IMG/VR virus record: IMGVR_UViG_3300045911_000356
Coordinates: 1-47,190 of that record
DNA length: 47,190 bases
Source: a virus
Reading direction: 5' to 3' (one strand)
The position numbers and the translations under genes were made by a program. Shown one piece after another: positions 19,020 to 45,785 of this stretch (the first letter of the stretch is position 1; each line of letters opens with the position of its first letter). The notes under the pieces are model-generated. The model ran no database searches, was not told where the DNA came from, and saw only the letters and a list, made by a program, of their open reading frames with translations.

Positions 19020-19708
19020 TAAAAATATCAGAAATAGAGCAAGTATTTAAGGATATCTTTGAGGAAGAAGAAGGTGTTGTTAATTCAGTTGAGACTGTAT
19101 ATGAATCTCCCGAAGAGGGTGACTTTTTAAGATTGGTTATATCAATACATGGTTTATCAACAGAAGATACTTCTATTATACATACTAAGTTTATATTCAA
19201 GGTTGACACTAATAAAAGACATGTTTTAGAAGATACGTTTATATACCTTTATGATATAAACTGTGTTTATCACAGGATTGAGTTTAATAATGTTGTTGAT
19301 TTGAAGAAAAAGATTGAAGGTATAATAGAGTCTAAAAATTTTGGTGAGGATTTACAGATATTATCCGACTTTATCGAAGCTCCGGCTATGTTCTTAAACT
19401 ATTATATGAGAAGAGCTAAGATTACAGATTATTCTGTTTTTGATGTTAAGTATGATCCCAAGTTTAAAACAACTCCTTGTGATAAAACTACATTTGATTT
19501 TAAGATTAATATTAATAACAACTACCATATTAATTTATCTATCTATAAAATAGATAGAGATAAAGAGGAAGAAACAGATGTTTATAAGTATCAGTTTAAG
19601 TTTATGGATGAGATTGAGACTTATGATACTGATACGTTAAAGAACATGCACTATTTCATTGGAGACCGTATTGCTAGAATTCTTGATAAAAAGTTAAAGA
19701 ATAAATAA
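19016..19708 (+). CDS. hypothetical protein, 230 aa
   Basis: Unrecognised acidic, soluble alpha/beta protein. It is the middle gene of a three-gene operon: the start overlaps the nucleotidyltransferase stop (ATGA at 19016-19019) and its stop overlaps the next start (TAATG at 19706-19710). The coupling suggests it works with the nucleotidyltransferase, possibly as a partner or antitoxin-like factor, but no motif proves it. It lacks the shared leader. Confidence 0.62.
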   Translation: MIKISEIEQVFKDIFEEEEGVVNSVETVYESPEEGDFLRLVISIHGLSTEDTSIIHTKFIFKVDTNKRHVLEDTFIYLYDINCVYHRIEFNNVVDLKKKIEGIIESKNFGEDLQILSDFIEAPAMFLNYYMRRAKITDYSVFDVKYDPKFKTTPCDKTTFDFKININNNYHINLSIYKIDRDKEEETDVYKYQFKFMDEIETYDTDTLKNMHYFIGDRIARILDKKLKNK

Positions 19709-20367
19709 TGAAACATCTTAAAGAATTTTTTAATTATATTAAGGAATCCAAGAGTATAGATAAGGAAGAGGTTGAAACTATGTTATTACCTATAAAGGAT
19801 ATGGGGTTTCGAATTTCATATTCAGAAGGAGTTATTATATCCGTTAATGTTAGAGATAAGAACCATGGTAAGAAATATCTAAAAGTGCATATTGATTTAA
19901 GTTCATTGAATAGGTCGGATATAATTATAGATGGTTATAGAACAAAGGAAATAGATGATAATAGACTTTGGGAGATATTGGATGAAATAATGTCATTAAG
20001 GGGTAGATTAATGGGTGAACATATAGAGAATTGTATTATTGACTTTATTATAAGAGAAAATTATTTTGCAATATCGCTTATTTTAGTTGGTAATAAAGAG
20101 GAGGAAAAAAGTGATGAATTTTTACTTATTGAGTTGATGTCTATACTAAAATCTAAATTGAATAATATGAAAACTGATTTCTCTTATAACACACTTGTTA
20201 GTTTAAATAATGATAATGGCGAATATAGTATTGATATTAAATCCAATCCATATTGGTATACTGATAGAAAATTAAATAATTTATTTAGGGGTATTGATAT
20301 GTCTAGATTTAATGTGAATAAGTATATTGGTAGTAATGTCATAAATAGAATAACTATTAAAAAATAA
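19708..20367 (+). CDS. hypothetical protein with capsid-targeting-like leader, 219 aa
   Basis: Begins MKHLKEFFNYIKES, very like the T4 internal-protein leader (MK, aromatic residues, then I-x-E), so removal of the first 13 residues by the phage protease is predicted. The remaining roughly 205 residues have no recognised domain. It is the last gene of the operon; a host-type promoter for the tmRNA begins 11 nt after its stop. Confidence 0.65.
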   Translation: MKHLKEFFNYIKESKSIDKEEVETMLLPIKDMGFRISYSEGVIISVNVRDKNHGKKYLKVHIDLSSLNRSDIIIDGYRTKEIDDNRLWEILDEIMSLRGRLMGEHIENCIIDFIIRENYFAISLILVGNKEEEKSDEFLLIELMSILKSKLNNMKTDFSYNTLVSLNNDNGEYSIDIKSNPYWYTDRKLNNLFRGIDMSRFNVNKYIGSNVINRITIKK

Positions 20368-20946: not shown

Positions 20947-21267
20947 ATGAAACACTTAAACAAGCACTGGTTGAGAGAGAAAGAATATATCTCTCTTAAA
21001 AAAGAACTAGATGAAATTTATTGTAAAATGAATTCAGCTAGATATATAAGATTGCCAAATACAAGAGTTTGTGAAATTAATAGAAAGTTAGACTATAAGT
21101 TCTATAACGAAAAACATGGTTGTTATCATACTGCTCCTAAATGGTATAGAAAAATGAAGAATCGAATACAAAGAGTTAAATCTAAACGTACTCTTTATAA
21201 GATTGTTAATATTTCTGATGATTACACATTTGAAGATAATTATAAAGATGCTCCTTGGTACTGGTAA
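20947..21267 (+). CDS. small basic protein with capsid-targeting-like leader, 106 aa
   Basis: Starts MKHLNKHWLREKEY, with L-R-E at residues 9-11, the same position as in the LRR and amidoligase leaders. The rest is basic (many Lys/Arg), with three Tyr-rich segments and Cys 26, 42 and 59, suggesting nucleic-acid binding, but no domain is recognised. It is the first gene of the host-promoter operon that continues with NADAR. If the leader works, this is a small DNA-associated internal head protein like T4 IP proteins, although a host-type promoter would be unusual for such a gene. Confidence 0.6.
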   Translation: MKHLNKHWLREKEYISLKKELDEIYCKMNSARYIRLPNTRVCEINRKLDYKFYNEKHGCYHTAPKWYRKMKNRIQRVKSKRTLYKIVNISDDYTFEDNYKDAPWYW

Positions 21268-21298
21268 AAACTTTAGTATTTATACAAATATAAAAGAT

Positions 21299-21769
21299 AT
21301 GATTAGTAAATTCGAAGGTCGATATAGATTTTTATCAAATTTTTATCCTGCTAAAATAGAACACCAAGGTATTGAATATCCTAGTGTTGAACACTACTAC
21401 GTTGCTATGAAGGTTAACGACCAGCAATTTATAAATGGTAAATACTACACACCAGGTGATTTTCGTGAAATGATTGCCTCTATTTCTGATCCTGGTCAGG
21501 TAAAAAGAATTGGTCGAATGGTTAAATTGAGAAAAGACTGGGAGATTCAACGATTAAAGGTTATGAATTGGGGAGTTTATCAGAAATTCAAAAATCATGA
21601 AGACCTTAGACAAATGCTATTAGATACTGGTGACCAAGAATTAGTTGAGGGTAATTGGTGGCATGATAATTTCTTCGGTTCTTGTATTTGTACTAAATGT
21701 GGAAACAAAGGTGAAAATCACTTAGGTAAGATATTAATGAAAGTTAGAAGTGAGTTACGATGTGGATGA
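21299..21769 (+). CDS. NADAR (YbiA-like) domain protein, 156 aa
   Basis: A complete NADAR-family protein. FLSNFYPAKIEHQGIEYPSV near residues 10-29, followed by EHYYVAMK, and the later GNWWHDNFFGSC and ENHLGKILMKVR segments are the conserved family blocks. NADAR enzymes hydrolyse ADP-ribose or related N-glycosides; some remove ADP-ribose from guanine in DNA (antitoxins of DarT-like systems), while YbiA acts on riboflavin-pathway intermediates. In a phage, countering an ADP-ribosylating defence or managing NAD is plausible but unproven. The start at 21299 gives the family length; an upstream in-frame ATG at 21203 would overlap the previous gene. The CICTKCG insertion (three Cys) could bind zinc. 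Confidence 0.85.
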   Translation: MISKFEGRYRFLSNFYPAKIEHQGIEYPSVEHYYVAMKVNDQQFINGKYYTPGDFREMIASISDPGQVKRIGRMVKLRKDWEIQRLKVMNWGVYQKFKNHEDLRQMLLDTGDQELVEGNWWHDNFFGSCICTKCGNKGENHLGKILMKVRSELRCG

Positions 21770-21880: not shown

Positions 21881-22852
21881 ATGTGCGCAATGATTTCCTA
21901 TTTTGGGGGAAAGAGTTCTCCTGTTTTTATGGAGTTTATTAATTCTAAAATTCCTAAGACTGGAATAAAAACATATATAGAACCTTTTAGTGGTAGTTTT
22001 GCTACTTATATGGATGATGATCAACTTGAATTTGATAAAGTTATCTACAATGATAAGAATCGACATCAGGTGAACTTGTATAAGTGTTGTTCTGAGCCCG
22101 AAAAATTTCTTCCATATTTAGAGAATTTAAAAAATACTCTTCTTAAAACAGAAGAAAAGGATCCACTAAAAAAATGGGACTTTTATAAGGGTATTTATAA
22201 AGAATATATCAAAAACGATTTCCTAGATAACAATGATTTTGAAATAGGTGATTTTGAAAAAGCTGCTATATACGCATTTTTAATCACATCAGCTCATAAT
22301 TCTGTTTACCCACGAGGAGCGGGTTTCAATGGATATAAGAAAGATAAAGATAAACTAAAGTTAGAAGTTCTTATTGATAAATTAAAGAAGAACAAATATA
22401 CTAAGAAATTACAATCTATCACTGAGTTCAATAATATTGATTTTGAAGAGTTAATTAGAAAATATGATTCAGAAGATACTTACCTATATTTAGATCCACC
22501 ATATGCAAGATTTAATGAAGAAAAGGGAGAGGATGATGCTAAGAGGCTATTCTGGTATGGTGCTGACTCTGATGGTGTATTCGGACCCGCTTCACATAGA
22601 AGATTATTGGAATTACTAAAGACTACAAAATGTAGATGGTCTTTATCATACTACTACTTCCCATTACTCGATGAGTTATTACCAAGAGACCAATATGTAT
22701 GGACTCAGAAAGAAGTTTTCAGAAGTTCAGCACATGGTGGTAATAATTCTAGCCTTAAAGGTGAACAAACTAAAGGGGTTGAGTTACTTATTATGAATTA
22801 TGATCCAAATACTGGATTAAGAACAAATATACAGTATGAGTCTAGAGTGTAA
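21881..22852 (+). CDS. dam: DNA adenine methylase (Dam-type, D12 class)
   Basis: A 323-residue class-D12 N6-adenine methyltransferase. The SAM-binding motif is PFSGSF (35-40) with an upstream YFGGKSSP (7-14), and the catalytic motif is YLDPPYARF (DPPY at 205-208). The AHNSVYPRGAGFNGY segment (about 138-152) is typical of the family between the two motifs. It transfers methyl to adenine, probably at a short palindrome, and would protect phage DNA from host restriction or mark packaged DNA. An alternative start is M4. It shares an operon with the NADAR gene and overlaps the next gene by 17 nt. Confidence 0.92.
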   Translation: MCAMISYFGGKSSPVFMEFINSKIPKTGIKTYIEPFSGSFATYMDDDQLEFDKVIYNDKNRHQVNLYKCCSEPEKFLPYLENLKNTLLKTEEKDPLKKWDFYKGIYKEYIKNDFLDNNDFEIGDFEKAAIYAFLITSAHNSVYPRGAGFNGYKKDKDKLKLEVLIDKLKKNKYTKKLQSITEFNNIDFEELIRKYDSEDTYLYLDPPYARFNEEKGEDDAKRLFWYGADSDGVFGPASHRRLLELLKTTKCRWSLSYYYFPLLDELLPRDQYVWTQKEVFRSSAHGGNNSSLKGEQTKGVELLIMNYDPNTGLRTNIQYESRV

Positions 22853-23597
22853 TTTGTTAGATAGTATAAATAATTTATCATTTAAATTATTAAATTTACC
22901 AGATTTTTTTAACATTCAGGTGTGTGATTATAGTTTACCTGAGAGATTAGAAGCATCTTTTAGTATAAAAACTATACCTCAAGTTTTTGATATTGATATT
23001 AAGTCTGAAATATTAAAACAAATATGTAATGACCTTACAACAAAAGTTGTTAATAATTCTCTACAAGAAATGTCAAATTCAAGTAATATAGTAGTTGATT
23101 TTATCGATAAAAGAGGACTGGGAGATATCACAATTATTCCATATTCTGATATAGAGGATTTTGTTTCTGAAATAGTGAATCAGTGTCGAGGTTATAAAAA
23201 TATTGTTTGTAGTGGGTCTGTTGCTATTGTAATACAGGATGATTCGAGATTACATTTTTCACCACAAAATGAAAATTTCATAAAGACACAATCATTTATT
23301 TATAAGGTTGGTGTTATATGTGGTATCAATGTGTGGATAGATCCATATATGAAATATAATGATTATAAGATAATGGCTTTTAATGATATTGATATTAAAC
23401 TTAGTGGATTATCAAGTAAAATTGTATCTGAATCAAATTTTGACCAAAAAATTATCATAGGTTTTACTAAACTTACGAGTATAGGTGATGTTAAGAAGTT
23501 ATATATTATAATTAATGAGTCATCTGAGGGGTGGATGATATTTGTTCAAAAAAATAGAGATTCAAAAATTAATAATATTTTGAATGAGGAAAAGTAG
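22836..23597 (+). CDS. capsid-protein-derived domain protein, 253 aa
   Basis: Most of this protein resembles the central-to-C-terminal part of the phage's own major capsid protein. The clearest block is INVWIDPYMKYNDYKI (about 164-179), against ISIYVDPYMKYNDNRI in gp23 (about 480-495). Upstream, EIVNQCRGYKNIVCSGSVAI aligns with the gp23 segment around IAHASNYI and YLITNGGLAAALQD, and PERLEASFSIKTI resembles the T4 gp23 motif ending RQLKAAYSIEL. The N-arm and the last 60 residues of gp23 have no counterpart. It could be a vertex or minor capsid protein (as gp24 derives from gp23), an assembly factor, or a repurposed domain. It overlaps dam by 17 nt and lies outside the head block. Confidence 0.6.
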   Translation: MSLECNLLDSINNLSFKLLNLPDFFNIQVCDYSLPERLEASFSIKTIPQVFDIDIKSEILKQICNDLTTKVVNNSLQEMSNSSNIVVDFIDKRGLGDITIIPYSDIEDFVSEIVNQCRGYKNIVCSGSVAIVIQDDSRLHFSPQNENFIKTQSFIYKVGVICGINVWIDPYMKYNDYKIMAFNDIDIKLSGLSSKIVSESNFDQKIIIGFTKLTSIGDVKKLYIIINESSEGWMIFVQKNRDSKINNILNEEK

Positions 23598-23642: not shown

Positions 23643-24146
23643 TTAGAAAGGTATGTCTTTCTCTTCTTTAGAACTATCTTCTTCATCATTAGCATCGTTT
23701 TCTTCTTCTCCATCATATACAAGTTCATCTTTATATGTGAAATTGAATGTTAATATAGGTCTACCATCTTTAGTTTCCCATAATTCGAATTCAGATTCAT
23801 ATTGTAATAGTATGTCATTTTTAAGCTTTTTAGCTAAATCAAATACACTCAGTATATTTTTCATTTTTTCTCTTTTGTTGAGAACTACATATATAGATAT
23901 ATTTAGACCCTCACTATCAACATCGGCTTCTATACCAACATTTTTGAATAATGATCTAATTAGATATAGTAGATGTTGCATATCCTCACTTTGTATATAC
24001 TCATCTTCCTTATCGGGATCATATCCAGCATGAATTGATTTTTTTGAATAGTTTGGTCTTCCATATAAGAAGCCATCTGAATTATCATACTCGATCTCTA
24101 CTGGATCGATTTCTTCGAATAATTTTTTATATTTTTTTAATTTCAT
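23643..24146 (-). CDS. capsid-targeting-like leader plus SSB-like acidic DIPF tail, 167 aa
   Basis: Two end signals flank an unrecognised body. The N-terminus MKLKKYKKLFEEI carries L-F-E at 9-11, as in the shared leader. The last 25 residues are strongly acidic and end KEEKDIPF, the form of the bacterial SSB C-terminal tip (acidic tail then DIPF) that docks RecO, RecQ, PriA, exonuclease I and the Pol III chi subunit. The body (20-140) is alpha/beta and not an obvious OB-fold. It may be an SSB-tip mimic delivered with the DNA to recruit or block host repair nucleases, or a phage SSB. It is the last gene of the minus-strand head operon and directly abuts the peptidase gene. Confidence 0.6.
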   Translation of the reverse strand: MKLKKYKKLFEEIDPVEIEYDNSDGFLYGRPNYSKKSIHAGYDPDKEDEYIQSEDMQHLLYLIRSLFKNVGIEADVDSEGLNISIYVVLNKREKMKNILSVFDLAKKLKNDILLQYESEFELWETKDGRPILTFNFTYKDELVYDGEEENDANDEEDSSKEEKDIPF

Positions 24147-25508
24147 TTATTTCAATTCAATTTTTAGATATGTGTTTGAGAATGTAAGGTCGGGGTCTAA
24201 TTTATGTTTTCTTAAAATAACAGACATTGATGATAATGTATTGTGTATTTCATCTATGCTAGAATCTTCTAAATCTATCCTTATAAATACAACGCCTTCA
24301 TTACCAACAACTTTTGTTTCTGAATCAAATATAGACTCTTTAATATCCTTAATTAAGTGCTTGTATTTTTTTAATAATTCTTCATCAATTCCAACTTTTC
24401 TAACAGTTGGTAATGAGTTCCAATTAACTCTTAGAGTAGCTTGACATAACTTTATTAGATAAGTCATATTTTGGCTTTCATCTCTAGTATGTTCTTTATT
24501 ATAACCAACAGAAACATTTGTGCATTCTGGTATTTGATCAATAAATGAAGCTGAATCAGTATATACACCAGTTGGATCTAATGATAATTTTAGACCACTT
24601 TTATTAAATTCTTTACACAATGCTGTTGCGAACTCATTTGAACAGCATTTTCTACCCATTTGTTGCGTGATAACAGAGTGTGTTTTTCTTCTATCAAAAG
24701 AGATACATCTTTTGATGTTTTTTAAGTATTCTACTTCATCATACACATATGATAATTGATGAGATCCTATTCCACCTCTTTCTTCCCCAATGAAGAAATA
24801 GTATAGTCCTGGTATATTATGAGCCATCATATACATCATAATAGTTACACCTGATTTATCATCAGCTCCTAATATAGTATTACCATCTGTTATGATATAT
24901 TCATTTCCTTCATGTATTACACTAAATAGATTAACTTCTGATTGATTTCTATCAGCCGTATCTAAGTGAGATGTGAACATTGTCTCAGGCTTATCACCTA
25001 TTATATAATAGTAGTTACCAACAACATCTTTTTTGAGGTTTTGTGGTAAGAATTTCAATACTTCATGTTCGTGTCCGTGCGGGTACGTCATTGTCACCAT
25101 TGACAGAAATGTTGATCTAACGTCTTTTGGGTTATATTTGAATTCACCCACTGTTATAGGTTTACCTCCAAATCTACTTTCTACTGTATCGCCTTTTACA
25201 CCAGTTAATTTATGTATTCTATTTACGAATTTAGCGATATCCGACCTCATTATTGTTCCTTTGAAGAAATATTCAGCGAACCTATCTATCCTCATTGGAC
25301 GAACCTTGTCATCAATTGTTACATCAAATGAACCAGGTGTTCTGGATAAATCTACTTTAGTTATTTTTAGACCATTATGATACTCAGCATCCGGTTCTGT
25401 CATCCATAGTAACTCGAAAGCCAAATATAGATTTTCACTTTCTAGTTTTTTTAATACACCTATAAGTGCTTTAGAGAATTCTATCTTTGGTAAACTGTTT
25501 TCTGACAT
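24147..25508 (-). CDS. M20/M28/M42-type zinc metallopeptidase
   Basis: A 453-residue protein whose C-terminal two thirds is a co-catalytic zinc aminopeptidase-like fold. Likely ligands and catalytic residues: H181 and D183 in TSHLDTADR, D216 in GADDKSG, E242/E243 in IGEERGG, D272 in SFDRR and H340 in GYNKEHTRDE. All five zinc-ligand positions are therefore present, which argues for activity. Relatives cleave N-terminal residues or small peptides. The first 130 residues are not part of the fold and are unrecognised. A phage peptidase next to head genes might finish degrading scaffold peptides or recycle host peptides; this is inference. A phage promoter motif lies 25 nt upstream. Confidence 0.8.
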   Translation of the reverse strand: MSENSLPKIEFSKALIGVLKKLESENLYLAFELLWMTEPDAEYHNGLKITKVDLSRTPGSFDVTIDDKVRPMRIDRFAEYFFKGTIMRSDIAKFVNRIHKLTGVKGDTVESRFGGKPITVGEFKYNPKDVRSTFLSMVTMTYPHGHEHEVLKFLPQNLKKDVVGNYYYIIGDKPETMFTSHLDTADRNQSEVNLFSVIHEGNEYIITDGNTILGADDKSGVTIMMYMMAHNIPGLYYFFIGEERGGIGSHQLSYVYDEVEYLKNIKRCISFDRRKTHSVITQQMGRKCCSNEFATALCKEFNKSGLKLSLDPTGVYTDSASFIDQIPECTNVSVGYNKEHTRDESQNMTYLIKLCQATLRVNWNSLPTVRKVGIDEELLKKYKHLIKDIKESIFDSETKVVGNEGVVFIRIDLEDSSIDEIHNTLSSMSVILRKHKLDPDLTFSNTYLKIELK

Positions 25509-25545: not shown

Positions 25546-26238
25546 TTAAACATCAATTTCGTTGGCATTTATGTAGTCAACTTTTACTTGACCATTATTC
25601 ATCCCCGGCTCTTTTTTGACAAATTTTCTTTTACAGTAAACAACCGTTACTTTATTATCCTTTGGTGATTTACTATTTTTTTTGGCAATTGATGCTGCTT
25701 TTTTTATTACTTCGTTTGTTGGTAATTTATCATTTACTCTTATTACTATGTGACTACCAGGTACACCTTTTGCATGCATCCATATATCTTCTTTATTAGC
25801 TATATTGAATGTTAAATGGTCATTTGACAAAGCATCTTTACCTATATAGATTGTAAATCCGTCAATTTCCATTTTTTTAATATTAGGAAATTTATTTTTT
25901 TTAGACTCATTAAATAAACTAAAATTCATTATTTTACTTTCTTTTATGTTATCCAAACAAAAATCAGTGAATTTATCCCAGTCACCTTTTTCTATATTAC
26001 CAATTTTTAATGATATCAATTCTTCTTCACCTTTAAATATATAATAATTTGTTTCGTTTTCTTCGATTCTCTCCTCAACACAACTATAAGGTGGATTATT
26101 AAAATCTTCAATATCCATATCATCATATATTAATTTATTACAAATATATGCGTATATCCCAGTTAAGTTATTAAAGTATTTTATTATTATATTTTGATCG
26201 TCATTCCGATTTTCAATTAATAGATATTTGCCACTCAT
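25546..26238 (-). CDS. NFACT-R (RqcH/NEMF-type) domain protein, 230 aa
   Basis: The C-terminal half is a well conserved NFACT-R domain: the segment GFTIYIGKDALSNDHLTF (127-144), then EDIWMHAKGVPGSHIVIR (150-167), then KVTVVYCKRKFVKKEPG (196-212) follow the family pattern, including DxWxHxKGxPGSH. In RqcH and NEMF this part helps bind obstructed 50S subunits and tRNA and supports Ala tailing. The N-terminal NFACT-N domain and coiled coil are absent; residues 1-120 are unrelated and unrecognised. It may therefore capture or block the host rescue pathway rather than replace RqcH. The motif TTAATATATA lies exactly 4 nt before the ATG, and a terminator separates it from the capsid gene, so it is an independent late transcript. 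Confidence 0.86.
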   Translation of the reverse strand: MSGKYLLIENRNDDQNIIIKYFNNLTGIYAYICNKLIYDDMDIEDFNNPPYSCVEERIEENETNYYIFKGEEELISLKIGNIEKGDWDKFTDFCLDNIKESKIMNFSLFNESKKNKFPNIKKMEIDGFTIYIGKDALSNDHLTFNIANKEDIWMHAKGVPGSHIVIRVNDKLPTNEVIKKAASIAKKNSKSPKDNKVTVVYCKRKFVKKEPGMNNGQVKVDYINANEIDV

Positions 26239-26252: not shown

Positions 26253-26273
26253 TTACAAATTATTTAAAAAAAG

Positions 26274-26299
26274 AAAAAAGACTCCGAAGAGTCTTTTTT
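26274..26299 (-). terminator. capsid-gene terminator with UUCG tetraloop
   Basis: On the minus strand the stem AAAAAAGACTC/GAGTCTTTTTT closes a TTCG loop, giving the very stable C(UUCG)G tetraloop. T4 is known to use such loops. It lies 19 nt after the gp23 stop. Confidence 0.93.
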
Positions 26300-26317
26300 C
26301 AATATATGGTAACTTAA

Positions 26318-28009
26318 TTAGTTAAGTAAACCTTTACTGTCATCAACTTTGATAGTCATGAACTGCTTTTGAGGGAACCAACCTACCTCAGCGATTGCAT
26401 AACGGCTTCTTAATAACATTCTTGGAGCGAATGTTGCTTCAGAAATAACAGTAATAGACTGAGCCATTAAGTAAGGTACGAAAATGATACCTGGTTGGTC
26501 AGGATTGTTCTTTCTACCAAGAACGATTCTGTTATCGTTATACTTCATATATGGATCAACGTAGATAGAGATATCTCCGATAGAACCTACTGGGTATAAT
26601 TGACCTTGAGCATTCATCTTAGATTTAACTGGGTTAATTGTATAACCTGCAATATCTTGAAGAGCCGCAGCAAGACCTCCGTTTGTGATTAGATACTGAG
26701 CAGGACCAATACGACCTTCAGTTGCTATGTAGTTCGAAGCATGAGCTATCTTAGTGATAAGTTTTCTTTGAACTGCATGTGTAGTTTCACCACCAACGTT
26801 AGTACCAGCGTAAGCTGTATCTAAGTCAAATATTGTCATATTTGGGATGTTATTTAAACCAGAATTAGAAAGAGGAGCTGATTCTCTGTTAAGATCACCC
26901 ATTTCAAAAATCTTAGCAACTATTTGCTTAGAGATTGTTTGAGATAATTCGTTAACAAGTATAGATTCCATTTTTTGAACTATATCCATACCTGTGTTAG
27001 CTTTAATGTCTTCGATTTCAGTCCTTCTTAATGCTGAACTTACTTCAATAGTACCAACTGCAATTGTTTTAGAAGAAATCTTAGGACCGATAACACCTGC
27101 GTAGCTATCATCATCTTTTTGACGATCCATTGGGTAGTTTCCAGCGAATCCTGTTGTGCTTGACATCCAGTTAGCTGAAAATCCTGGGATATGATCTTCA
27201 AGAGCTGATACTAATTCAACTGTTAAGTTACCAGAACCAGAAGTTACTGATGCTGTACCGATTGTTGTGATTTGATCAACCATTGATTGTGTTGGATTGA
27301 ATGTGTTTCTTGTTTGATCGAATGACCAAAGTGTGCTTGCTGTATTAACCGCGGTGTGAGCTGTGTTAAATTGTCTGTAAGCTCTGAACATTGGGTATCC
27401 GTCAATACGAGAGAAACCTAAGAACTCAACAATACCAGCTTTTGAACCAGTTGGCTCAGTAGCTGTATTTACAGTAGGACCGTAGATATTTGTAAACCAT
27501 CTACCAGTTAAACCACCTTGAGTTTGTTGACCAGCGTTTGCAGTTAAAGTAGCGTTAACTAAAGATCTTTCAGTTGCATTAGCAATATTTAATTTGAAAA
27601 CTTGTGGTCTTTCATCTTGAGCCCCTAAACGAGTATCATCGTATTGGAAGTCGATGTAAAGTAAATCGATTTTTGGACCCGGAGAAGGCTTAACAGCTAC
27701 TAAATCAAGACCAATTGTATGAGCTGCAATTTTCATAGCTACTGGTAAAAGGTTCTGACCAACATCACCTGAACCAACTAATGTTGAGTTATTACCTATT
27801 GTTTGACCAGCTAATAATGATGGTTGAGGAGCAACAACTGCACCCATACCTGCTAAGTTAGATGCGTTAACGTAAGCGTTTTCGTTGATAGAGTGATACT
27901 CAGCGTATTCAGACATCCAATCAATTTTCTCACTGTTAACACCCATGTTCTCAAGAACTGGAGACCATTTCTTGATTGCTTTTTGTTTGTCTATTCTAAT
28001 GTGTGACAT
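26318..28009 (-). CDS. gp23: major capsid protein, T4 gp23-like
   Basis: A 563-residue HK97-fold major capsid protein of the T4 type. Supporting blocks are KKWSPVLENMGV near the N-terminus (as in gp23 KWKPLLEG), IAVGTIEVSSALRRTEIEDI in the E-loop/spine region, a GDISIYVDPYMKYND strand at about 478-492 and the C-terminal RSRYAIAEVGWFP. In T4 the protease gp21 removes the first 65 residues after an L/I-x-E-type site; here candidate sites lie around residues 32-45 (SEYAE, SINEN). It follows the protease-scaffold gene in the conserved order portal, protease, capsid. A TTTATATATA box 32 nt upstream and a strong terminator suggest a separate, abundant late mRNA. Confidence 0.95.
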   Translation of the reverse strand: MSHIRIDKQKAIKKWSPVLENMGVNSEKIDWMSEYAEYHSINENAYVNASNLAGMGAVVAPQPSLLAGQTIGNNSTLVGSGDVGQNLLPVAMKIAAHTIGLDLVAVKPSPGPKIDLLYIDFQYDDTRLGAQDERPQVFKLNIANATERSLVNATLTANAGQQTQGGLTGRWFTNIYGPTVNTATEPTGSKAGIVEFLGFSRIDGYPMFRAYRQFNTAHTAVNTASTLWSFDQTRNTFNPTQSMVDQITTIGTASVTSGSGNLTVELVSALEDHIPGFSANWMSSTTGFAGNYPMDRQKDDDSYAGVIGPKISSKTIAVGTIEVSSALRRTEIEDIKANTGMDIVQKMESILVNELSQTISKQIVAKIFEMGDLNRESAPLSNSGLNNIPNMTIFDLDTAYAGTNVGGETTHAVQRKLITKIAHASNYIATEGRIGPAQYLITNGGLAAALQDIAGYTINPVKSKMNAQGQLYPVGSIGDISIYVDPYMKYNDNRIVLGRKNNPDQPGIIFVPYLMAQSITVISEATFAPRMLLRSRYAIAEVGWFPQKQFMTIKVDDSKGLLN

Positions 28010-28092: not shown

Positions 28093-30171
28093 TTAGATGT
28101 TTTTGAATCTTTCCATTATAGCTTGGACTTCTTTATCAGAAAGTTTATCTTCTTGTATTAAACTTTCATGTGACACAAGCTTCTTAGTAACAGATTCATT
28201 TTTTTTGAGATTTCTAGTTAACCAGAAATGCTCAATTTGATTTTCAGTTTTTAATACATCTTCTGGGTATAATCTAGCTTGTGATAAGATAGACTTTTTA
28301 GAAGATTCATTTAACTGATTCCAGATTGGCTTAATGTTTTCAGGCATCAATCTGATTATTCTTTCTTCAAGAGATTCATTCTTAGATGAAAGTGCTTCAG
28401 CGATCAAAGAAAGTACATCTTTCTGTGTGAAATAACTTCTTTCGTTTATGTGAAGTTTAACAGTTTCTTGTTCTTCTTCTGATAGTGCATAAAAGCTATC
28501 AACTTGTGACTTGTTCAAGAATTTTAAGAAATTCAAGTCAGTTGATTCAGAAACTTTACGTTTTTTAGCTTCTTCAATTAATTTATCAATAGATTTAGAT
28601 AATTCTGTATCTGATTTGCCTTCGTATGTTGATTCTTCTTCATCTTTATTATCTTCCTCTTCTTCTTTATTATAAACCTTTTCTGAGTTAACTTTAGAAA
28701 CACCATTTAATTCACAAGGTTCACATACTTCTTTTTCCTCTTCTTCCTCTTCTATATTTTCAAAACCAGCGTCTTGCAATGAAGGGAAAGATTCTTCAAC
28801 AGATTCAAATAATTTACCACTGTTTAATTTCTCAACGATCATTCCTTGATAAGAAATAGATTTGTCAAGATTTTCAGCGATATATTCAGAATATGCAATG
28901 TTGTCATCTAAATGTTCGGCAATGTACTCAGAGTAAGCAATGTTACCTTCGATATGTTCTGCTAAATATTCAGAATATGCAATTGAGTTATCAACATGTT
29001 CAGCAATATATTCAGAATAGGAAATATTCTTGTCAAGATTTTCAGCTATATACTCAGAGTAAGCAATATTCTTATCTAAATTCTCAGCTAAATACTCAGA
29101 GTAAGCGATGTTCTTATCAAGATTTTCAGCAATATATTCAGAATAAGAAATATTCTTGTCAAGATTTTCAGCAATATATTCAGAATAAGAAATATTCTTA
29201 TCTAAATTCTCAGCTAAATACTCAGAATATTCAATGTTTTTGTCAAGATTCTCAGCAAGATATTCAGAGTAGTTAATTGCTTTCTCTAGATTCTCAGCTA
29301 AGTAGTCATTGTGCTTAATAAGCTTTTCAGCTGTTTCTTTTAGAGATTTATTTTCATTAACAACAACCTGTACTTTTTCAGCCAAGTAATCAAGATATTT
29401 AATCACTTGTGAGTTAGTTTTGTTTAATTCTTCATAGTATTCAATTAACTGCTCAAGTTTTTTAGGGTTCATATTACCCTTAGTGATGGCACTTTTAACT
29501 TCTTTTTTAGTAGAAGCTATTTCATTAACTAAGTACTGAGAGTATTCAGTTAATTGTTTTTTTGTAACATAATCGTTCTTATTCATGTTAAATATCTCAT
29601 TTATTTTGGACTCATCGGACATTTCATATATCCTAAAGTTAGATTTTGGGTTTGTGTAACCTAGAGACTCATTAAGAACTTTAACACTCATTTTAGCAGA
29701 TGAGAAACCCGGATCCGCAACAATGTCATAAGTGAATAGCTTCTTTAATGAAACAGATCCATCAGATTCGGTAATACCTGCTGCTCTGGAAGAAACAAAA
29801 ATAGGACACCCGTCATCGACAAGAGCCTTAGCTTCTTTACCCCAGTAAGTATTAAGTAATTTGATTTCACCTTCTACTTTGTTTGATTCTTTTACATAAG
29901 AAGCTTTGGTAATAATGTGAGATGCTCTTGAAAGAGAAGTGTCAAATACATCGGGGTGATCAAACTCCCCATATACAACACCTAAGCTTTTAATTCTTTC
30001 ATTAAGTTCATCAAGAGCAGGAAGGAATTTATCAGCGGTATATATTCTTTCGTTACGGTTTTTAACTCCGAACTCGGTAAAAGTACCGCCTAAAACATAA
30101 TCCTTCTTACCAGCACTGTTCTCTCTTATAAGAGAGCTAGTTGAATTTTCTACAATTAAAACTGGTTTCAT
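28093..30171 (-). CDS. gp21: prohead protease fused to scaffold-like coiled coil (gp21-gp22-like)
   Basis: A 692-residue protein in the position of T4 genes 21 and 22. Residues 1-175 are a gp21-type serine protease: likely catalytic His72 in VYGEFDHPD and Ser127/128 in FVSSRAAG, with the substrate-site segment GGTFTEFGVKNRNERIY near 28-44. T4 gp21 is about 210 residues and scaffold gp22 is a separate gene; here about 500 further residues follow. Residues 291-447 are a 14-residue repeat (YSEYIAENLDKNIS-type, two heptads, coiled coil), each with LAE, IAE or IVE, which fits the T4 protease site L/I-x-E. Then comes an acidic stretch (450-520) and a helical C-terminus. It would drive core assembly and later destroy itself. 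Confidence 0.9.
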   Translation of the reverse strand: MKPVLIVENSTSSLIRENSAGKKDYVLGGTFTEFGVKNRNERIYTADKFLPALDELNERIKSLGVVYGEFDHPDVFDTSLSRASHIITKASYVKESNKVEGEIKLLNTYWGKEAKALVDDGCPIFVSSRAAGITESDGSVSLKKLFTYDIVADPGFSSAKMSVKVLNESLGYTNPKSNFRIYEMSDESKINEIFNMNKNDYVTKKQLTEYSQYLVNEIASTKKEVKSAITKGNMNPKKLEQLIEYYEELNKTNSQVIKYLDYLAEKVQVVVNENKSLKETAEKLIKHNDYLAENLEKAINYSEYLAENLDKNIEYSEYLAENLDKNISYSEYIAENLDKNISYSEYIAENLDKNIAYSEYLAENLDKNIAYSEYIAENLDKNISYSEYIAEHVDNSIAYSEYLAEHIEGNIAYSEYIAEHLDDNIAYSEYIAENLDKSISYQGMIVEKLNSGKLFESVEESFPSLQDAGFENIEEEEEEKEVCEPCELNGVSKVNSEKVYNKEEEEDNKDEEESTYEGKSDTELSKSIDKLIEEAKKRKVSESTDLNFLKFLNKSQVDSFYALSEEEQETVKLHINERSYFTQKDVLSLIAEALSSKNESLEERIIRLMPENIKPIWNQLNESSKKSILSQARLYPEDVLKTENQIEHFWLTRNLKKNESVTKKLVSHESLIQEDKLSDKEVQAIMERFKNI
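28831..29301 (-). repeat. 42-bp in-frame repeat encoding 14-residue cleavage-site units
   Basis: Twelve units with LAE/IAE/IVE at residues 291, 305, 319, 333, 347, 361, 375, 389, 403, 417, 431 and 445 (first residue), exact period 14. A further LAE at 263 keeps phase (28 before 291). DNA copies differ at silent sites, so the repeat is old or held by selection. The ORF on the opposite strand is a shadow. Confidence 0.9.
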
Positions 30172-30931: not shown

Positions 30932-32641
30932 TTAGAATTCGAATTCACCGCTGGATTCTCCAGATTCTCCACCGGCTTCTTCGCTTCCACTTTCGGTTGT
31001 TTCTTGTGATACTCCTGTTTCTCCGCCAGATTCAGGTGTTGCTTGTGATCCGGTCGTTTCGATGCCTTCGGATCCAATTTCACTACCCTCAGATCCACTT
31101 TCTGTTGTTGATCCAGATGATGATGAATCTTTTAGCCAGTACTTTTTATTTTCCTCTTTTTCTTCTGGTGTTAATTTAAATATGTGATCCATAATATAGT
31201 CAATATGGAAGTAAGGTTTTTCACCATTCATTATACCAAGCATTGTATTTACAATGTCAGCTTTCTTTTGAATGTTTCCTAATTTTTTCCATTCTTCAAA
31301 CACTTGGTTTGAGTTGAAGTTAATATCTATTTGATTCAAGAATGATTCATCATTCTTTAACTCTGGGAACTCTATTAGAATTTGCAGTTTAATTGGTTTA
31401 ACAATTAATTCCTTGAAGTTTGCTCTTAATCTATTGATGAAGTTAGAGAACTTAATCTCATCTCTTGTCATCTCAGCAGCATCTGTGAATAGATTACCGC
31501 CACCATTTTCTTTTTCAAATCTTTGAAATGGTATCTTTGATGCTCTTTTTAATGCATTGTAGAACCAAGTTAACATGTCTGACTCATTCAGGTTGTGTCC
31601 TTCTGGTGACACTAAATCCATTTGTGGTGTACCAGCGTCTCCCTCAGGAAACCATATTTGTTTATTATATGGTAAGTGCTTAGATCCATTTATAGTTAAT
31701 GTACCTAAAGTATCATCCCATTCAACCTCTTCTGAATAGTCATGTATTAATTGACCAATTTGTTCTTCGGCTCTTTGTCTTGACATACCTTTAATAGGTA
31801 TTGTGAATTTTTGATAAACTGTGGCGTTAATAATATTGAACATTATTCTTGTTTGCTCAAGAATCTTTAATTGATTATAAGGCTTTATTAACCCTTCAAC
31901 ATAAGAAGTTTCTGAATAGTCATTTTGCGTAGCATATGATATATAAACTATTTGCGAGTCTAAGAATATTCTCCTTAATTGAGGATCTTCTGGATATTGA
32001 ATCCATAAATGTCCTATACTTGGTTCATATGCTGGAACTAGTGTTTCTGGTCTTAATCTATTAAATCCAATGATGTTTTTCTTTTTATCATCATATATGA
32101 TTTCCATTGCAATAAATCCATCAATTAGGAAATCTTTCATCATGTTCCATGCTGTTATATTGTCTGAGAATCCAAATTTATTATAGATTTTCTCGAAATA
32201 TTCTTGATACTTATCTTTTATTTCTTGTGAATAATCATTTGATAATGGTTTAGGTGAACAAAAATCTTTATCGTTATATACGATAGTCTCATCTGCTATT
32301 GTACTAATAAAGTCTCTAATTTCATCCTTTATCGAATATTCTCTTAATATTCTTCTTTTATCAGCATAAGATTTGTCTAAATATGGAATAGATTTTCTAT
32401 TTAATACAGAAGCTACGGCCCTTTGTGAGAAAAAATCGTACATGCTATTTCCTCTAGCAGCTAATGGATCTTCATTTATTCCAATACCTACTTGGTTTCT
32501 GACGATCATATCGTCATAGTTCATTCCATAGTTTGAAAGATTTCTTAATATTCTACTAAATAACCCTTTATTTTCAATAGCTGTATTGATGTATATTCCG
32601 CCTGTGTTTCTTGAGTTAAATGGATTATATGATTGAGCCAT
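30932..32641 (-). CDS. gp20: portal protein, T4 gp20-like
   Basis: A 569-residue portal. Family blocks include the NLNESDMLTWFYNALKRASK segment and the following IPFQRF (about 355-380), then AAEMTRDEIKFSNFINRLRA (about 395-414), the equivalents of the T4 gp20 stem/wing motifs YFRRKLYKALNVP and ITRDELKFTKFVQRLR. It forms the dodecameric ring through which DNA is packaged. The last 60 residues are a Ser/Gly/Glu-rich tail that T4 gp20 lacks in this form. It lies upstream of the protease gene, with an inserted homing-endonuclease fragment between the two, and a TTAATATATA motif lies 22 nt before the ATG. Confidence 0.93.
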   Translation of the reverse strand: MAQSYNPFNSRNTGGIYINTAIENKGLFSRILRNLSNYGMNYDDMIVRNQVGIGINEDPLAARGNSMYDFFSQRAVASVLNRKSIPYLDKSYADKRRILREYSIKDEIRDFISTIADETIVYNDKDFCSPKPLSNDYSQEIKDKYQEYFEKIYNKFGFSDNITAWNMMKDFLIDGFIAMEIIYDDKKKNIIGFNRLRPETLVPAYEPSIGHLWIQYPEDPQLRRIFLDSQIVYISYATQNDYSETSYVEGLIKPYNQLKILEQTRIMFNIINATVYQKFTIPIKGMSRQRAEEQIGQLIHDYSEEVEWDDTLGTLTINGSKHLPYNKQIWFPEGDAGTPQMDLVSPEGHNLNESDMLTWFYNALKRASKIPFQRFEKENGGGNLFTDAAEMTRDEIKFSNFINRLRANFKELIVKPIKLQILIEFPELKNDESFLNQIDINFNSNQVFEEWKKLGNIQKKADIVNTMLGIMNGEKPYFHIDYIMDHIFKLTPEEKEENKKYWLKDSSSSGSTTESGSEGSEIGSEGIETTGSQATPESGGETGVSQETTESGSEEAGGESGESSGEFEF

Positions 32642-32693: not shown

Positions 32694-33170
32694 TTAGATA
32701 TAGAATGTTCTTGATATAACCTTTATGTCATCAGGCGTTAGGTTCATTTCAATCAACAGCTTCTTTATTTCCTCATTGAAGTTAGCTAACATCTTTAAAA
32801 GTTTTTGGTAGTCATTTACAGATTTTCTATTTGCAAATTTATTGTATTCTCTCCAAGCAACCGAACCATCTTTATTTAGTGTAGCAAGTACTCTATGTGT
32901 ATTATTAGGTTCTGATGTAAAAATACATAATATTCCATTTGCGTTACTTTCTCTTGAAACTGTTGCCTTAAAGAATTTTGCATTATTAAATATTCTTGTT
33001 TCACCAACTAGTATATCAAATGATAATTCATTTATCTTATTCATTTCCATTTCTTCAGCGTGTAATCTAATCTTTTCAGCTCTTGATTTCTGACCGTATT
33101 GTGATAGTTTGTCAGCAGCGCTTTTGTATGTTGAATAATCCAGTTCTTCAAATTTTCTAAGATGTTTCAT
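32694..33170 (-). CDS. hypothetical protein with capsid-targeting-like leader, 158 aa
   Basis: Begins MKHLRKFEELDYSTYKS, a shorter member of the shared leader family with F-E-E at 7-9. The first 50 residues are helical and charged; the middle (about 55-110) looks like a small beta barrel or SH3-like domain. No family is recognised. It sits directly upstream of the portal gene with its own promoter motif, so a head location is plausible. Confidence 0.6.
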   Translation of the reverse strand: MKHLRKFEELDYSTYKSAADKLSQYGQKSRAEKIRLHAEEMEMNKINELSFDILVGETRIFNNAKFFKATVSRESNANGILCIFTSEPNNTHRVLATLNKDGSVAWREYNKFANRKSVNDYQKLLKMLANFNEEIKKLLIEMNLTPDDIKVISRTFYI

Positions 33171-36853: not shown

Positions 36854-37942
36854 ATGAATAAAATAATGCTAGAGTATATTTGGTTGGATGGTAATAACCC
36901 TCAACAACTAAGAAGTAAGACTAAAATCGTTGATAAAGTAGATACTTTTCTAGCTAAGGATTATCCTGTTTGGTCATTTGATGGTAGTTCAACCAATCAA
37001 GCTAACTCTGGAAAGGGAAAGAATACAGATTGTTTATTGAAACCTGTATATGTCACATTGGATCCATTTAGAGGTGGTAATAATAGATTAGTTCTGTGTG
37101 AAGTGTTGAATCCTGATTTAACACCGCATTCGTCAAATAATCGACATAAATTAGTTTCCAAATTAAAAGAATTGAATATTGACGAGAATTCAACACCTAT
37201 GTCATTATTGCCTTGGTTTGGATGGGAGCAAGAATATACTTTGACACACAAACCAGTTTCGCCATTTTCAGAGGGTGTTGGATTGCCACTTGGCTTTTCA
37301 CCTGGTATGTCACCAAGACCACAAGGTGATTACTATTGCGGAATTGGATCAGATTCTGTTGTTGGTCGTGAAATTGTAGAAGAACACATGCGTAAGTGCA
37401 TTGAGATAGGATTAAATATTTCTGGTATAAATTCTGAAGTTTTATTGGGTCAATGGGAATATCAAATAGGACCTGTGAAACCACTTGATGGTTCTGATCA
37501 ACTATGGATATCAAGATACATATTACAAAGAGTTGCTGAGAAACACAATGTCAATGTTTCATTACACCCAAAACCTATTGAGGGTGATTGGAACGGAACG
37601 GGATGTCATGTTAATTTCTCAACTAATGAGATGAGAAGTGAAGGTGGTATAGATATTATCGAAGAAACAATGAAGAAGTTAGAAAAAGCACACAATGAAC
37701 ACATCAGTGTTTATGGTTTACATAATGAAAAGAGATTAACAGGCAAACATGAGACATCTGGTATACATGAATTTAGTTATGGATACAGTACTAGAGATAC
37801 ATCTATAAGAATCCCAGCTCAGGCTATTATAGATAAGAAAGGGTATTTTGAAGACAGAAGACCAGCTTCTAATTGTGATCCTTATTTAGTGTCTAGTAGG
37901 ATGTTACAGACAGTTTATAGTAAAGTAGAAGAGTTAGTATAA
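36854..37942 (+). CDS. glnA: glutamine synthetase, type II (eukaryote-like)
   Basis: A full-length 362-residue GSII that makes glutamine from glutamate, ammonia and ATP. Diagnostic blocks: YIWLDG (8-13), WSFDGSSTNQA (40-50), WFGWEQEYTL (121-130, metal-binding E125/E127), PQGDYYCGIG (156-165), GINSEVLLGQWEYQIG (191-206, E195/E202), GDWNGTGCHVNFST (244-257), NEKRLTGKHET (291-301), SIRIP (317-321) and YFEDRRPASNCDPY (331-344). No catalytic residue appears lost. GSII is the short, eukaryote-type enzyme; many Bacteroidetes rely on GSIII, so the phage copy is unusual. It may sustain nucleotide synthesis under nitrogen limitation or have been adapted for another ligation. A degenerate motif (TTAATATAAT) precedes it and a strong terminator follows. 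Confidence 0.95.
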   Translation: MNKIMLEYIWLDGNNPQQLRSKTKIVDKVDTFLAKDYPVWSFDGSSTNQANSGKGKNTDCLLKPVYVTLDPFRGGNNRLVLCEVLNPDLTPHSSNNRHKLVSKLKELNIDENSTPMSLLPWFGWEQEYTLTHKPVSPFSEGVGLPLGFSPGMSPRPQGDYYCGIGSDSVVGREIVEEHMRKCIEIGLNISGINSEVLLGQWEYQIGPVKPLDGSDQLWISRYILQRVAEKHNVNVSLHPKPIEGDWNGTGCHVNFSTNEMRSEGGIDIIEETMKKLEKAHNEHISVYGLHNEKRLTGKHETSGIHEFSYGYSTRDTSIRIPAQAIIDKKGYFEDRRPASNCDPYLVSSRMLQTVYSKVEELV

Positions 37943-42895: not shown

Positions 42896-44023
42896 ATGAA
42901 GCATCTTTTACGTTTTTCATTATTCGAGGAGGTTAATCCAAGAGACATTTCATTCGTTACACAAATGGATGACTATTTCACAGTCGCGTTTGAATTTGAA
43001 ATAGAAACAGTTGATAAAAAAAACATCAAAATTGACTTTAGTATATTGTATGATGATGATGATGTTATTGATATGTTGGATATTATAATAAAGGAAATGA
43101 ATCTTAGAAAGAAATCCGAGAAGAAACTTGTTGAGGATATAATCTACTCTGTAATTGATGTGCTGGAGGAAGGGATAATAACAAAAAAATTAAAAACAAA
43201 TTACAAGATAATAGATGAGATGTTATTTGATATCTTCAATCCTGATAATTTTAAATCTAGTAGAGATGCCGAGATAGCTTCTTTTACTAAATCAATATTA
43301 ATGAGTCATATATTTAGCGAAGATTTGAGTTATATGAAGAAGCAAGCTAAAAAATATTTGCCGAATTTTACAAGAAAATGGGCTAGGAAAATAGACTATG
43401 TTGGGGACGTGACTTTAGAAAGAGGAATAGAGATAAAACCTAAGAAATACCTTATTGGTTTGTCAGAAGGTATAGAAATGATAAATGATTTCTTCACTGA
43501 TTTCGAATCGCAGGATTATTGGAAATTCACCGATAGAACAGGATTGCATATTAACATTGGTGTTAATAAAAAAAATGTTGAGTGGAATCCTATAAAGGGT
43601 TTACTTATGTTGAATGATGTTGGTAAAGATGATTCAGTTCCATTGGTATTTAAGGATATGAACTGGAGAATGAATAATAAATTTTGTGGATCATTAATTA
43701 CATCTATTAGAAAAATAGATCCATCTAAGATAGATGATATCAAGAAGTCTATTAATATGAATGACATCAATTCAACAGAAGATTTTTTTAATAAATTTTT
43801 AACAGATAAGATAAAAGAATGGGGTTATAAGAACTTCGGATTTAATATTACAAAATTGGATCATAATTATGTAGAGTTTAGATATGTTGGTGGTGTTATA
43901 TCTAGAGAGTTGCTTATAAATAAATTAAAGTATTTTTCATTTATTGTATATGCCATGACTAACAAGGATTATAAAAGAAGAGAATATCTAAAGAAGTTAT
44001 ATAAGTTTGTTGATAGCTTATAA
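42896..44023 (+). CDS. amidoligase-like protein with capsid-targeting-like leader, 375 aa
   Basis: The first 11 residues, MKHLLRFSLFE, match the shared leader (L-F-E at 9-11). The body fits the putative amidoligase (COOH-NH2 ligase) family: FEFEIET (32-38, likely metal-binding Glu residues), RGIEIKPKKYL (176-186), TGLHINIGVNKKN (215-227) and YVEFRYVGG (325-333). These enzymes use a glutamine-synthetase-like fold to form amide bonds with ATP, for example on peptides or cell-wall groups. If packaged, it could modify a host component at the start of infection. The substrate is unknown. It converges on the LRR cluster with a 13-nt gap. Confidence 0.7.
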   Translation: MKHLLRFSLFEEVNPRDISFVTQMDDYFTVAFEFEIETVDKKNIKIDFSILYDDDDVIDMLDIIIKEMNLRKKSEKKLVEDIIYSVIDVLEEGIITKKLKTNYKIIDEMLFDIFNPDNFKSSRDAEIASFTKSILMSHIFSEDLSYMKKQAKKYLPNFTRKWARKIDYVGDVTLERGIEIKPKKYLIGLSEGIEMINDFFTDFESQDYWKFTDRTGLHINIGVNKKNVEWNPIKGLLMLNDVGKDDSVPLVFKDMNWRMNNKFCGSLITSIRKIDPSKIDDIKKSINMNDINSTEDFFNKFLTDKIKEWGYKNFGFNITKLDHNYVEFRYVGGVISRELLINKLKYFSFIVYAMTNKDYKRREYLKKLYKFVDSL

Positions 44024-44871: not shown

Positions 44872-44881
44872 TATATATTAA
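44872..44881 (-). promoter_or_regulatory. phage promoter motif TTAATATATA, 4 nt before an ATG (LRR 1)
   Basis: Minus strand reads TTAATATATACATAATG. Confidence 0.65.
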
Positions 44882-45771
44882 AGGATAAATTTATAATCAT
44901 TAATTAACTTTCTTAATTCTTCTTCACTTTTAGGCTTTCCTATTTCGTCTAGAAAATCGATTAATCTATTAAGAATAATTGAATTTCCTTGAATAATATC
45001 CATATCATTAAATAATTCTATTTTATCTTTATCTCTAAATAAATTCCATATCTGTTCTACTGGGTTATTTTTACAGTCGAAACGACCATCAATTGATTCC
45101 GGAGCACCTTCTAGTGAAATTAGTTTGTTATTAGAACACCAGAATTCACTACCAACCCATTTAGGACTGCCTTCTAGTGAAATTAGTTTGTTATTGCAAC
45201 AGAAGAAAACACCACTAACTGATTTAGGACCGCCTTCTAGTGAGGTTAGTTTGTTATTAGAACAGAAGAAACCACCACTAACCGATTTAGGACTGCCTTC
45301 TAGTGAGGTTAGTTTGTTAAAGGAACATTCAAAATTTCTACCAACTGATTCAGGACAGCCTTCTAGATAGGTTAGATTGTTATAGGAACAGTTGAAATCA
45401 CCGCTAACTGATTCAGGGCCTCCTTCTAGTGAAGTTAGGTTGTTATAGGAACAAATAAAATCCCCAAAAATCAATTTAGGACATCCCTCTAGTGAAGTTA
45501 GTTTGTTATTACGACAGTATAAATGACCACCAACCGATTTGGGACAACCTTTTAGTGAAGTTAGATTGTTATTGGAACAGTAGAAATTACCACTTACATT
45601 TCTAAATTTAAGGGGTATTCTATCTAATCCTTTATCAGATAGATTAACATTACCATTCACATCAATAGATCCATCAATATTTATAGTAAAACTTTGTATA
45701 CCATATTCTTTACATATAGATTTAATATCCTTATTAGATTCAAATAATCTATATTTAATTAAATATTTCAT
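44878..45771 (-). CDS. leucine-rich-repeat protein with capsid-targeting-like leader, 297 aa
   Basis: Starts MKYLIKYRLFESNKDIKS, with L-F-E at 9-11. The N-domain (about 60 residues) is followed by roughly 9 units of 21 residues (NNKLTSLEGCPK type) and the common C-terminal domain. The stop overlaps the promoter motif of the next gene, so each paralogue carries its own promoter in a head-to-tail array. It differs from its neighbours mainly in repeat number and in the variable positions of each unit. Confidence 0.78.
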   Translation of the reverse strand: MKYLIKYRLFESNKDIKSICKEYGIQSFTINIDGSIDVNGNVNLSDKGLDRIPLKFRNVSGNFYCSNNNLTSLKGCPKSVGGHLYCRNNKLTSLEGCPKLIFGDFICSYNNLTSLEGGPESVSGDFNCSYNNLTYLEGCPESVGRNFECSFNKLTSLEGSPKSVSGGFFCSNNKLTSLEGGPKSVSGVFFCCNNKLISLEGSPKWVGSEFWCSNNKLISLEGAPESIDGRFDCKNNPVEQIWNLFRDKDKIELFNDMDIIQGNSIILNRLIDFLDEIGKPKSEEELRKLINDYKFIL

Positions 45772-45775
45772 AATG

Positions 45776-45785
45776 TATATATTAA
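45776..45785 (-). promoter_or_regulatory. phage promoter motif TTAATATATA, 4 nt before an ATG (LRR 2)
   Basis: Minus strand reads TTAATATATACATTATG; the motif overlaps the stop codon region of the upstream paralogue. Confidence 0.65.

Follow-up and report, generated by a model that had tools for sequence, protein, structure and literature searches.

A head-cluster protein of huge T4-like phages with a conserved C-terminus resembling the SSB tip

Bacterial DNA repair, restart and recombination are organised around the C-terminal tip of SSB, which serves as their hub. Binding of this peptide (SSB-Ct) places the terminal Phe in a hydrophobic pocket and requires the free carboxylate and the acidic residues (PMC10164576). 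The Pro is also important, since an SSB peptide in which it is altered, like one that has lost the Phe, binds RecG much more weakly (PMC10164576). A second system that bears on the locus described here is that of the T4 internal proteins, which are packaged via a 10-residue N-terminal capsid targeting sequence (CTS) that is removed by gp21 (PMC9026906). We describe a phage protein with an acidic, SSB-like C-terminal tip and a CTS-like start. The encoding gene, here called the tip gene, is carried by relatives of the "Mahaphage" genomes of 634-642 kb, and Bacteroidetes have been predicted as hosts of phages with genomes of such sizes (Al-Shayeb et al., PMC7162821). An open-access literature search returned no report of such a non-SSB phage protein with an SSB-type tip.

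The tip protein and its C-terminal end

The window, i.e., the whole stretch of 47,190 nt of viral DNA that was analysed, carries the tip gene among the clustered head genes of a huge, T4-like phage. The encoded protein of 167 aa starts with MKLKKYKKLFEE and ends in ...YDGEEENDANDEEDSSKEEKDIPF, i.e., ...SSKEEKDIPF. The first-pass annotation had proposed an SSB-type DIPF tail for this reading frame, and both the frame, at exactly the coordinates then given, and the tail are confirmed. Its parts are as follows.

23643..24146, minus strand: gene of the tip-bearing protein, 167 aa, ATG start
24111..24146, minus strand: CTS-like N-terminus MKLKKYKKLFEE; gp21-type cleavage may occur after LFE (from motif enrichment, family N-termini and the T4 CTS background, PMC9026906)
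23997..24110, minus strand: acidic disordered linker, residues 13-50 (pLDDT mostly <50; length variable across the family)
23727..23996, minus strand: folded core, residues 51-140, helix-strand-strand-helix-strand-strand (AlphaFold2 pLDDT >90 over most of it; 55% mean pairwise identity)
23646..23726, minus strand: acidic disordered C-terminal tail, residues 141-167, ending DIPF (from family ends, AlphaFold2 and identity figures)
23646..23651, minus strand: terminal Pro-Phe codons, the invariant P-aromatic tip (from codon comparison)

Of named genomes, LR756502.1 (642 kb) and LR745206.1 (634 kb) come closest. The protein recurs unchanged on an IMG/VR contig of 195 kb (L001), and no homologues were found in bacterial genomes. 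A profile search gave 38 viral loci in addition to the two named genomes; two of these lose the C-terminus at contig ends and one (L022) is frameshifted by a single base, its next frame holding ...GEGEGDDDAPF, which leaves 37 intact loci with 30 distinct sequences. In all 37, an acidic stretch leads into a terminal Pro-Phe (27 loci) or Pro-Trp (10 loci, nine distinct sequences). The Pro-Trp ends form one clade, and in the family tree, which has long branches, the difference between the two endings is a single change with support 100/100. As to the first-pass concern that homologues might lack DIPF, the Pro-aromatic end is thus kept throughout, but the exact letters are not. Counting from the C-terminus in 22 representatives, position -2 is Pro in all 22, position -1 holds Phe 17 times and Trp five times, and Asp occupies position -5 in 19 and position -6 in 16. 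Mean pairwise identity is 82% in the tip, against 44% in the remaining tail and 36% in the N-terminal linker. The stretch just before the tip varies in sequence and in length (approximately 10 to 27 residues), with the tip always at the extreme C-terminus.

Sequence composition would lead one to expect about 1.6e-4 acidic-P[FW] ends per ORF, or 0.008 for the window with its 47 ORFs and about 0.15 per genome, so that a single case would be no more than suggestive and conservation has to decide. That the resemblance is a chance one without function could appeal to the per-genome figure, and to an unrelated 65-aa ORF of LR745206 that happens to end in NDLPF. It is refuted by the 37 of 37 intact loci that keep the end while their tip codons differ synonymously (Pro CCT or CCA, Phe TTT or TTC), and we give it next to no weight: on this comparison of sequences, the SSB-like tip is real and strongly constrained across a deep family.

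An OB fold for residues 15-140 had also been suggested. The AlphaFold2 model, for which 22 sequences were the input, instead predicts with confidence a core of the alpha-beta-beta-alpha-beta-beta type, flanked by disordered N- and C-terminal arms. Together with the absence of a PF00436 match in any member this rules out the OB fold, and since the predicted core is of a different kind we conclude that the protein is not an SSB. Searches of Pfam, PHROGs and PDB sequences with the family gave no convincing match, and scattered FecR_C matches in five members (best E 0.0013) were judged weak. With Foldseek the core found nothing in the PDB at E 0.001 or better, and one match among viral models, a small protein of an uncultured marine phage (TM 0.83 over 87 aa, E 1.7e-4). 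In VIA-align, the core scores Z 7-8.6 against circularly permuted S6 and against a number of tail-terminator or neck proteins of phages (SaPI1 neck 8.6, lambda gpU 7.9, phage NF5 neck 7.5), values near 8 that may reflect a common arrangement only. No paralogue of the core was found in LR756502.1 or LR745206.1 at E 0.05 or better; around the tip gene, Rfam gave no match and a promoter scan no frequency above that in shuffles.

Within these phages the tip stands by itself. Of approximately 980 ORFs in one large genome and 943 in the other, only the tip gene and the unrelated 65-aa ORF have an acidic P-F or P-W end, and no conserved gene other than the tip gene bears such a tip in either genome. 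The tip is no general cargo tag, because no other CTS-bearing protein of these phages has it. No PF00436 SSB was found in the two genomes; the ssDNA-binding protein of the phage is a gp32 homologue with the C-terminus EEDDFFADL, and we rejected the tip protein as the SSB of the phage because this gp32-like gene fills that place. Two other tails were noticed in these phages: a CTS-like protein with a long acidic tail and terminal ELPL (LR756502.1 207030-207584, LR745206.1 182319-182906), and the portal proteins (window 30932-32641, minus strand, and both large genomes), whose Gly/Glu/Pro-rich tail has a conserved terminal EFEF.

The head-gene cluster and the CTS-like start

Upstream of the tip gene, on the same strand, lie the following genes.

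24147..25508, minus strand: Zn-peptidase-like gene (phrog_4191), directly upstream of the tip gene
25546..26238, minus strand: NFACT-R domain protein, a conserved neighbour, with a CTS-like start in relatives
26318..28009, minus strand: major capsid protein (MCP, Gp23), head cluster
28093..30171, minus strand: prohead protease (gp21-like) with a long scaffold-like C-terminal part, head cluster

The peptidase gene directly precedes the tip gene in all loci with enough sequence, and wherever the start codon of the tip gene can be read, the peptidase stop codon abuts or overlaps it. The order MCP, NFACT-R, peptidase, tip gene is kept in nearly all of these loci. No homologue of the tip gene was seen beside the peptidase relatives of a 735 kb and a 636 kb genome. 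A strong terminator-like hairpin of 12 pairs with a T-run (26273-26300, minus strand) occupies the gap between the capsid and NFACT-R genes, so that co-transcription with the capsid gene may occur by read-through only. The NFACT-R (Rqc2-type RNA-binding) domain protein, whose gene immediately follows that of the capsid protein, may itself be packaged, since a CTS-like sequence begins the stand-alone domain of relatives.

Several further genes accompany the cluster. The product of 22836-23597 (plus strand), 253 aa, is weakly similar to Gp23 in part (Pfam E 0.0014) and lies just 3' of a Dam-type methyltransferase gene; fragments similar to it occur in several relatives. A NADAR-domain gene (21203-21769, plus strand) and a gene at 36854-37942 (plus strand), which from reading its sequence we take to be glutamine-synthetase-like, are each kept in the vicinity of the head cluster among relatives.

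N-termini that match MK-x(3-4)-[FY]...[FLIYN]E are found in 75 of 938 ORFs of one large genome and in 57 of 908 of the other, compared with 7.4 and 6.4 in shuffles. The CTS-like N-terminus noted in the first pass is thus a real motif, enriched genome-wide. Its spacing in the tip protein differs from that in T4. The starts found in the family (LFE, IFE, FLE, VNE and LKE) would fit a gp21-type cleavage after [hydrophobic]-x-E, and such a start is, together with the capsid-operon location, compatible with a packaged protein, although we infer packaging from a short motif only. T4-CTS-like starts (MKHLKxYKxFE and variants) are common to dozens of otherwise different proteins, many of them in consecutive runs (in the window, e.g., 19708-20367, 32694-33170, 42896-44023, 44878-45771 and 45782-47053), which suggests a very large set of possibly packaged proteins.

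What the tail may bind

To compare the tip with those of the likely hosts, we collected 134 C-terminal ends of Bacteroidota SSB-family proteins: 80 by a sequence query with a Bacteroides-like SSB composed for the purpose, which matched real SSBs at up to 86%, and 54 by family searches of two Bacteroidota genomes and a sample of the phylum. PF ends 125 of the 134, mostly as DDLPF, PY ends one and PW none. The features that the phage family conserves, i.e., the terminal aromatic, the free carboxylate and the acidic residues, are those that SSB-Ct sites read. Because the tail keeps these features, and because the SSBs of Bacteroidetes hosts end in PF, docking in the manner of an SSB tip is the best single explanation, and the sequences suggest that the virus imitates the SSB docking signal. 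Specifically, we propose that the protein is made late, is probably packaged and docks, by a peptide like the SSB tip, onto the partners of host SSB. We put this at somewhat short of an even chance, because of the Trp in one clade and because a protein from the capsid operon may have a phage partner. The absence of PW from the host SSBs checked also means that the pocket addressed by that clade may be different, and the clade counts against a strict mimic of the host tip. The variable residue at position -3 and the placing of the Asp pair, described below, likewise speak against the docking explanation. The first-pass reading, an injected tip mimic with targets such as RecO, PriA or ExoI, is supported in part: mimicry is plausible and the tip well conserved, whereas injection and action on host enzymes are putative.

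The proposed course of events would be the following. The tip gene, a capsid-operon gene presumably expressed late in this clade of huge T4-like Bacteroidetes phages, would yield a small folded domain to which a flexible, acidic tail with Pro-Phe or Pro-Trp at its end is attached. The CTS-like N-terminus would probably direct it into the prohead, where the gp21-type phage protease would trim it, and it would then enter the host along with the phage DNA. There the tail would most likely act like the SSB C-terminal tip, with the terminal aromatic and carboxylate in a pocket and the Asp residues on a basic ridge of one or more SSB-interacting host proteins, e.g., RecG, RecO, PriA or RecQ. It could thereby compete with host SSB for the enzyme, or bring the enzyme to the incoming phage DNA. 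Searches of the two large genomes for SSB, RecO, UDG and type IA topoisomerase families found none, which makes cellular tip-binding partners natural candidates; the RecO search did detect RecO in its Bacteroides control genome.

The strongest competitor, which we consider less likely, is that the tail docks onto a phage partner encoded in its own operon or present in the virion (capsid, neck, NFACT-R protein or coupled peptidase), and that its likeness to SSB is convergence on a generic acidic-aromatic C-terminal peptide. The preserved gene order, the tight junction with the peptidase gene and the Pro-Trp clade with its departure from host SSB tips all point this way, as does the middling structural resemblance of the core to tail-terminator and neck proteins. 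However, a shared arrangement could account for such Z scores, and a separate gp15-like tail-terminator candidate is encoded elsewhere in both genomes, with weak scores (E 2e-4 to 4e-4, below the curated cut-off). Moreover, the other CTS-bearing proteins of these phages lack the tip, and the peptidase has relatives in many phages that lack a tip gene.

Alternatively, the acidic PF tail could be an internal regulator that folds onto its own core or onto the nucleic-acid-binding surface of a neighbouring subunit, like the acidic ends of SSB, gp2.5 and Hfq. An acidic tail that closes with an aromatic residue is indeed typical of phage ssDNA-binding proteins. Hfq provides a precedent (PMC5606850). 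But the model places the tail on the core without confidence (pLDDT approximately 50 or less), and since the protein has a pI of 4.1-4.5 and its core lies between neutral and slightly acidic, there is no obvious nucleic-acid-binding surface, which makes this explanation improbable. Still less probable, in our estimate, is a Pro-aromatic end kept for stability or proteolysis, e.g., one that avoids or attracts a host protease that senses C-termini: the conserved trait is indeed the extreme C-terminal position, but the acidic residues are not obviously needed for this, and other proteins of these phages lack such an end.

Returning to SSB-tip-like docking, its most specific form is that huge Bacteroidetes phages deliver with their DNA a non-SSB protein whose evolved imitation of the SSB tip seizes SSB-interacting repair or restart enzymes of the host as infection begins; we advance this tentatively, as a possibility. 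If true, an SSB-unrelated phage protein that keeps the tip clade-wide would mean that viruses imitate the hub, possibly via an injected effector, and would offer a natural competitor peptide for the study or inhibition of SSB-partner contacts.

Comparison with known systems

Compared with the bacterial SSB-Ct (DFDDDIPF in E. coli, DDLPF in Bacteroidota), the tip is likewise acidic, at the extreme C-terminus behind a variable disordered linker, and has an invariant Pro and a terminal aromatic. The tip family differs in that position -3 is variable, often A, T, K or Y in place of the I/L of SSB, in that the Asp pair lies one residue farther from PF than in DDLPF, and in the PW of one clade. Unlike SSB itself, the protein has no OB fold and no PF00436 match, and its gene is located in a capsid operon.

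With T4 IPI-IPIII and Alt the tip protein shares the short MK...aromatic...[hydrophobic]xE start and the character of a small accessory protein, in a cluster that likewise holds a T4-type capsid protein and a gp21-like protease; a sequence relation is not evident, the motif spacing is unlike that of T4, and packaging and cleavage are putative here. The alpha-beta arrangement of the core is similar, over about 88 residues, to that of tail-terminator or neck proteins such as lambda gpU and the SaPI1 neck protein 9mu3 (Z 7-8.6), but the tip protein has no sequence similarity to them and carries long acidic disordered arms, and the candidate gp15-like gene lies elsewhere. Finally, an acidic C-terminal tail is common to T4 gp32 and T7 gp2.5, the latter with a terminal Phe, whereas the tip protein lacks an OB fold and the phage has its separate gp32 homologue, with a different tail.
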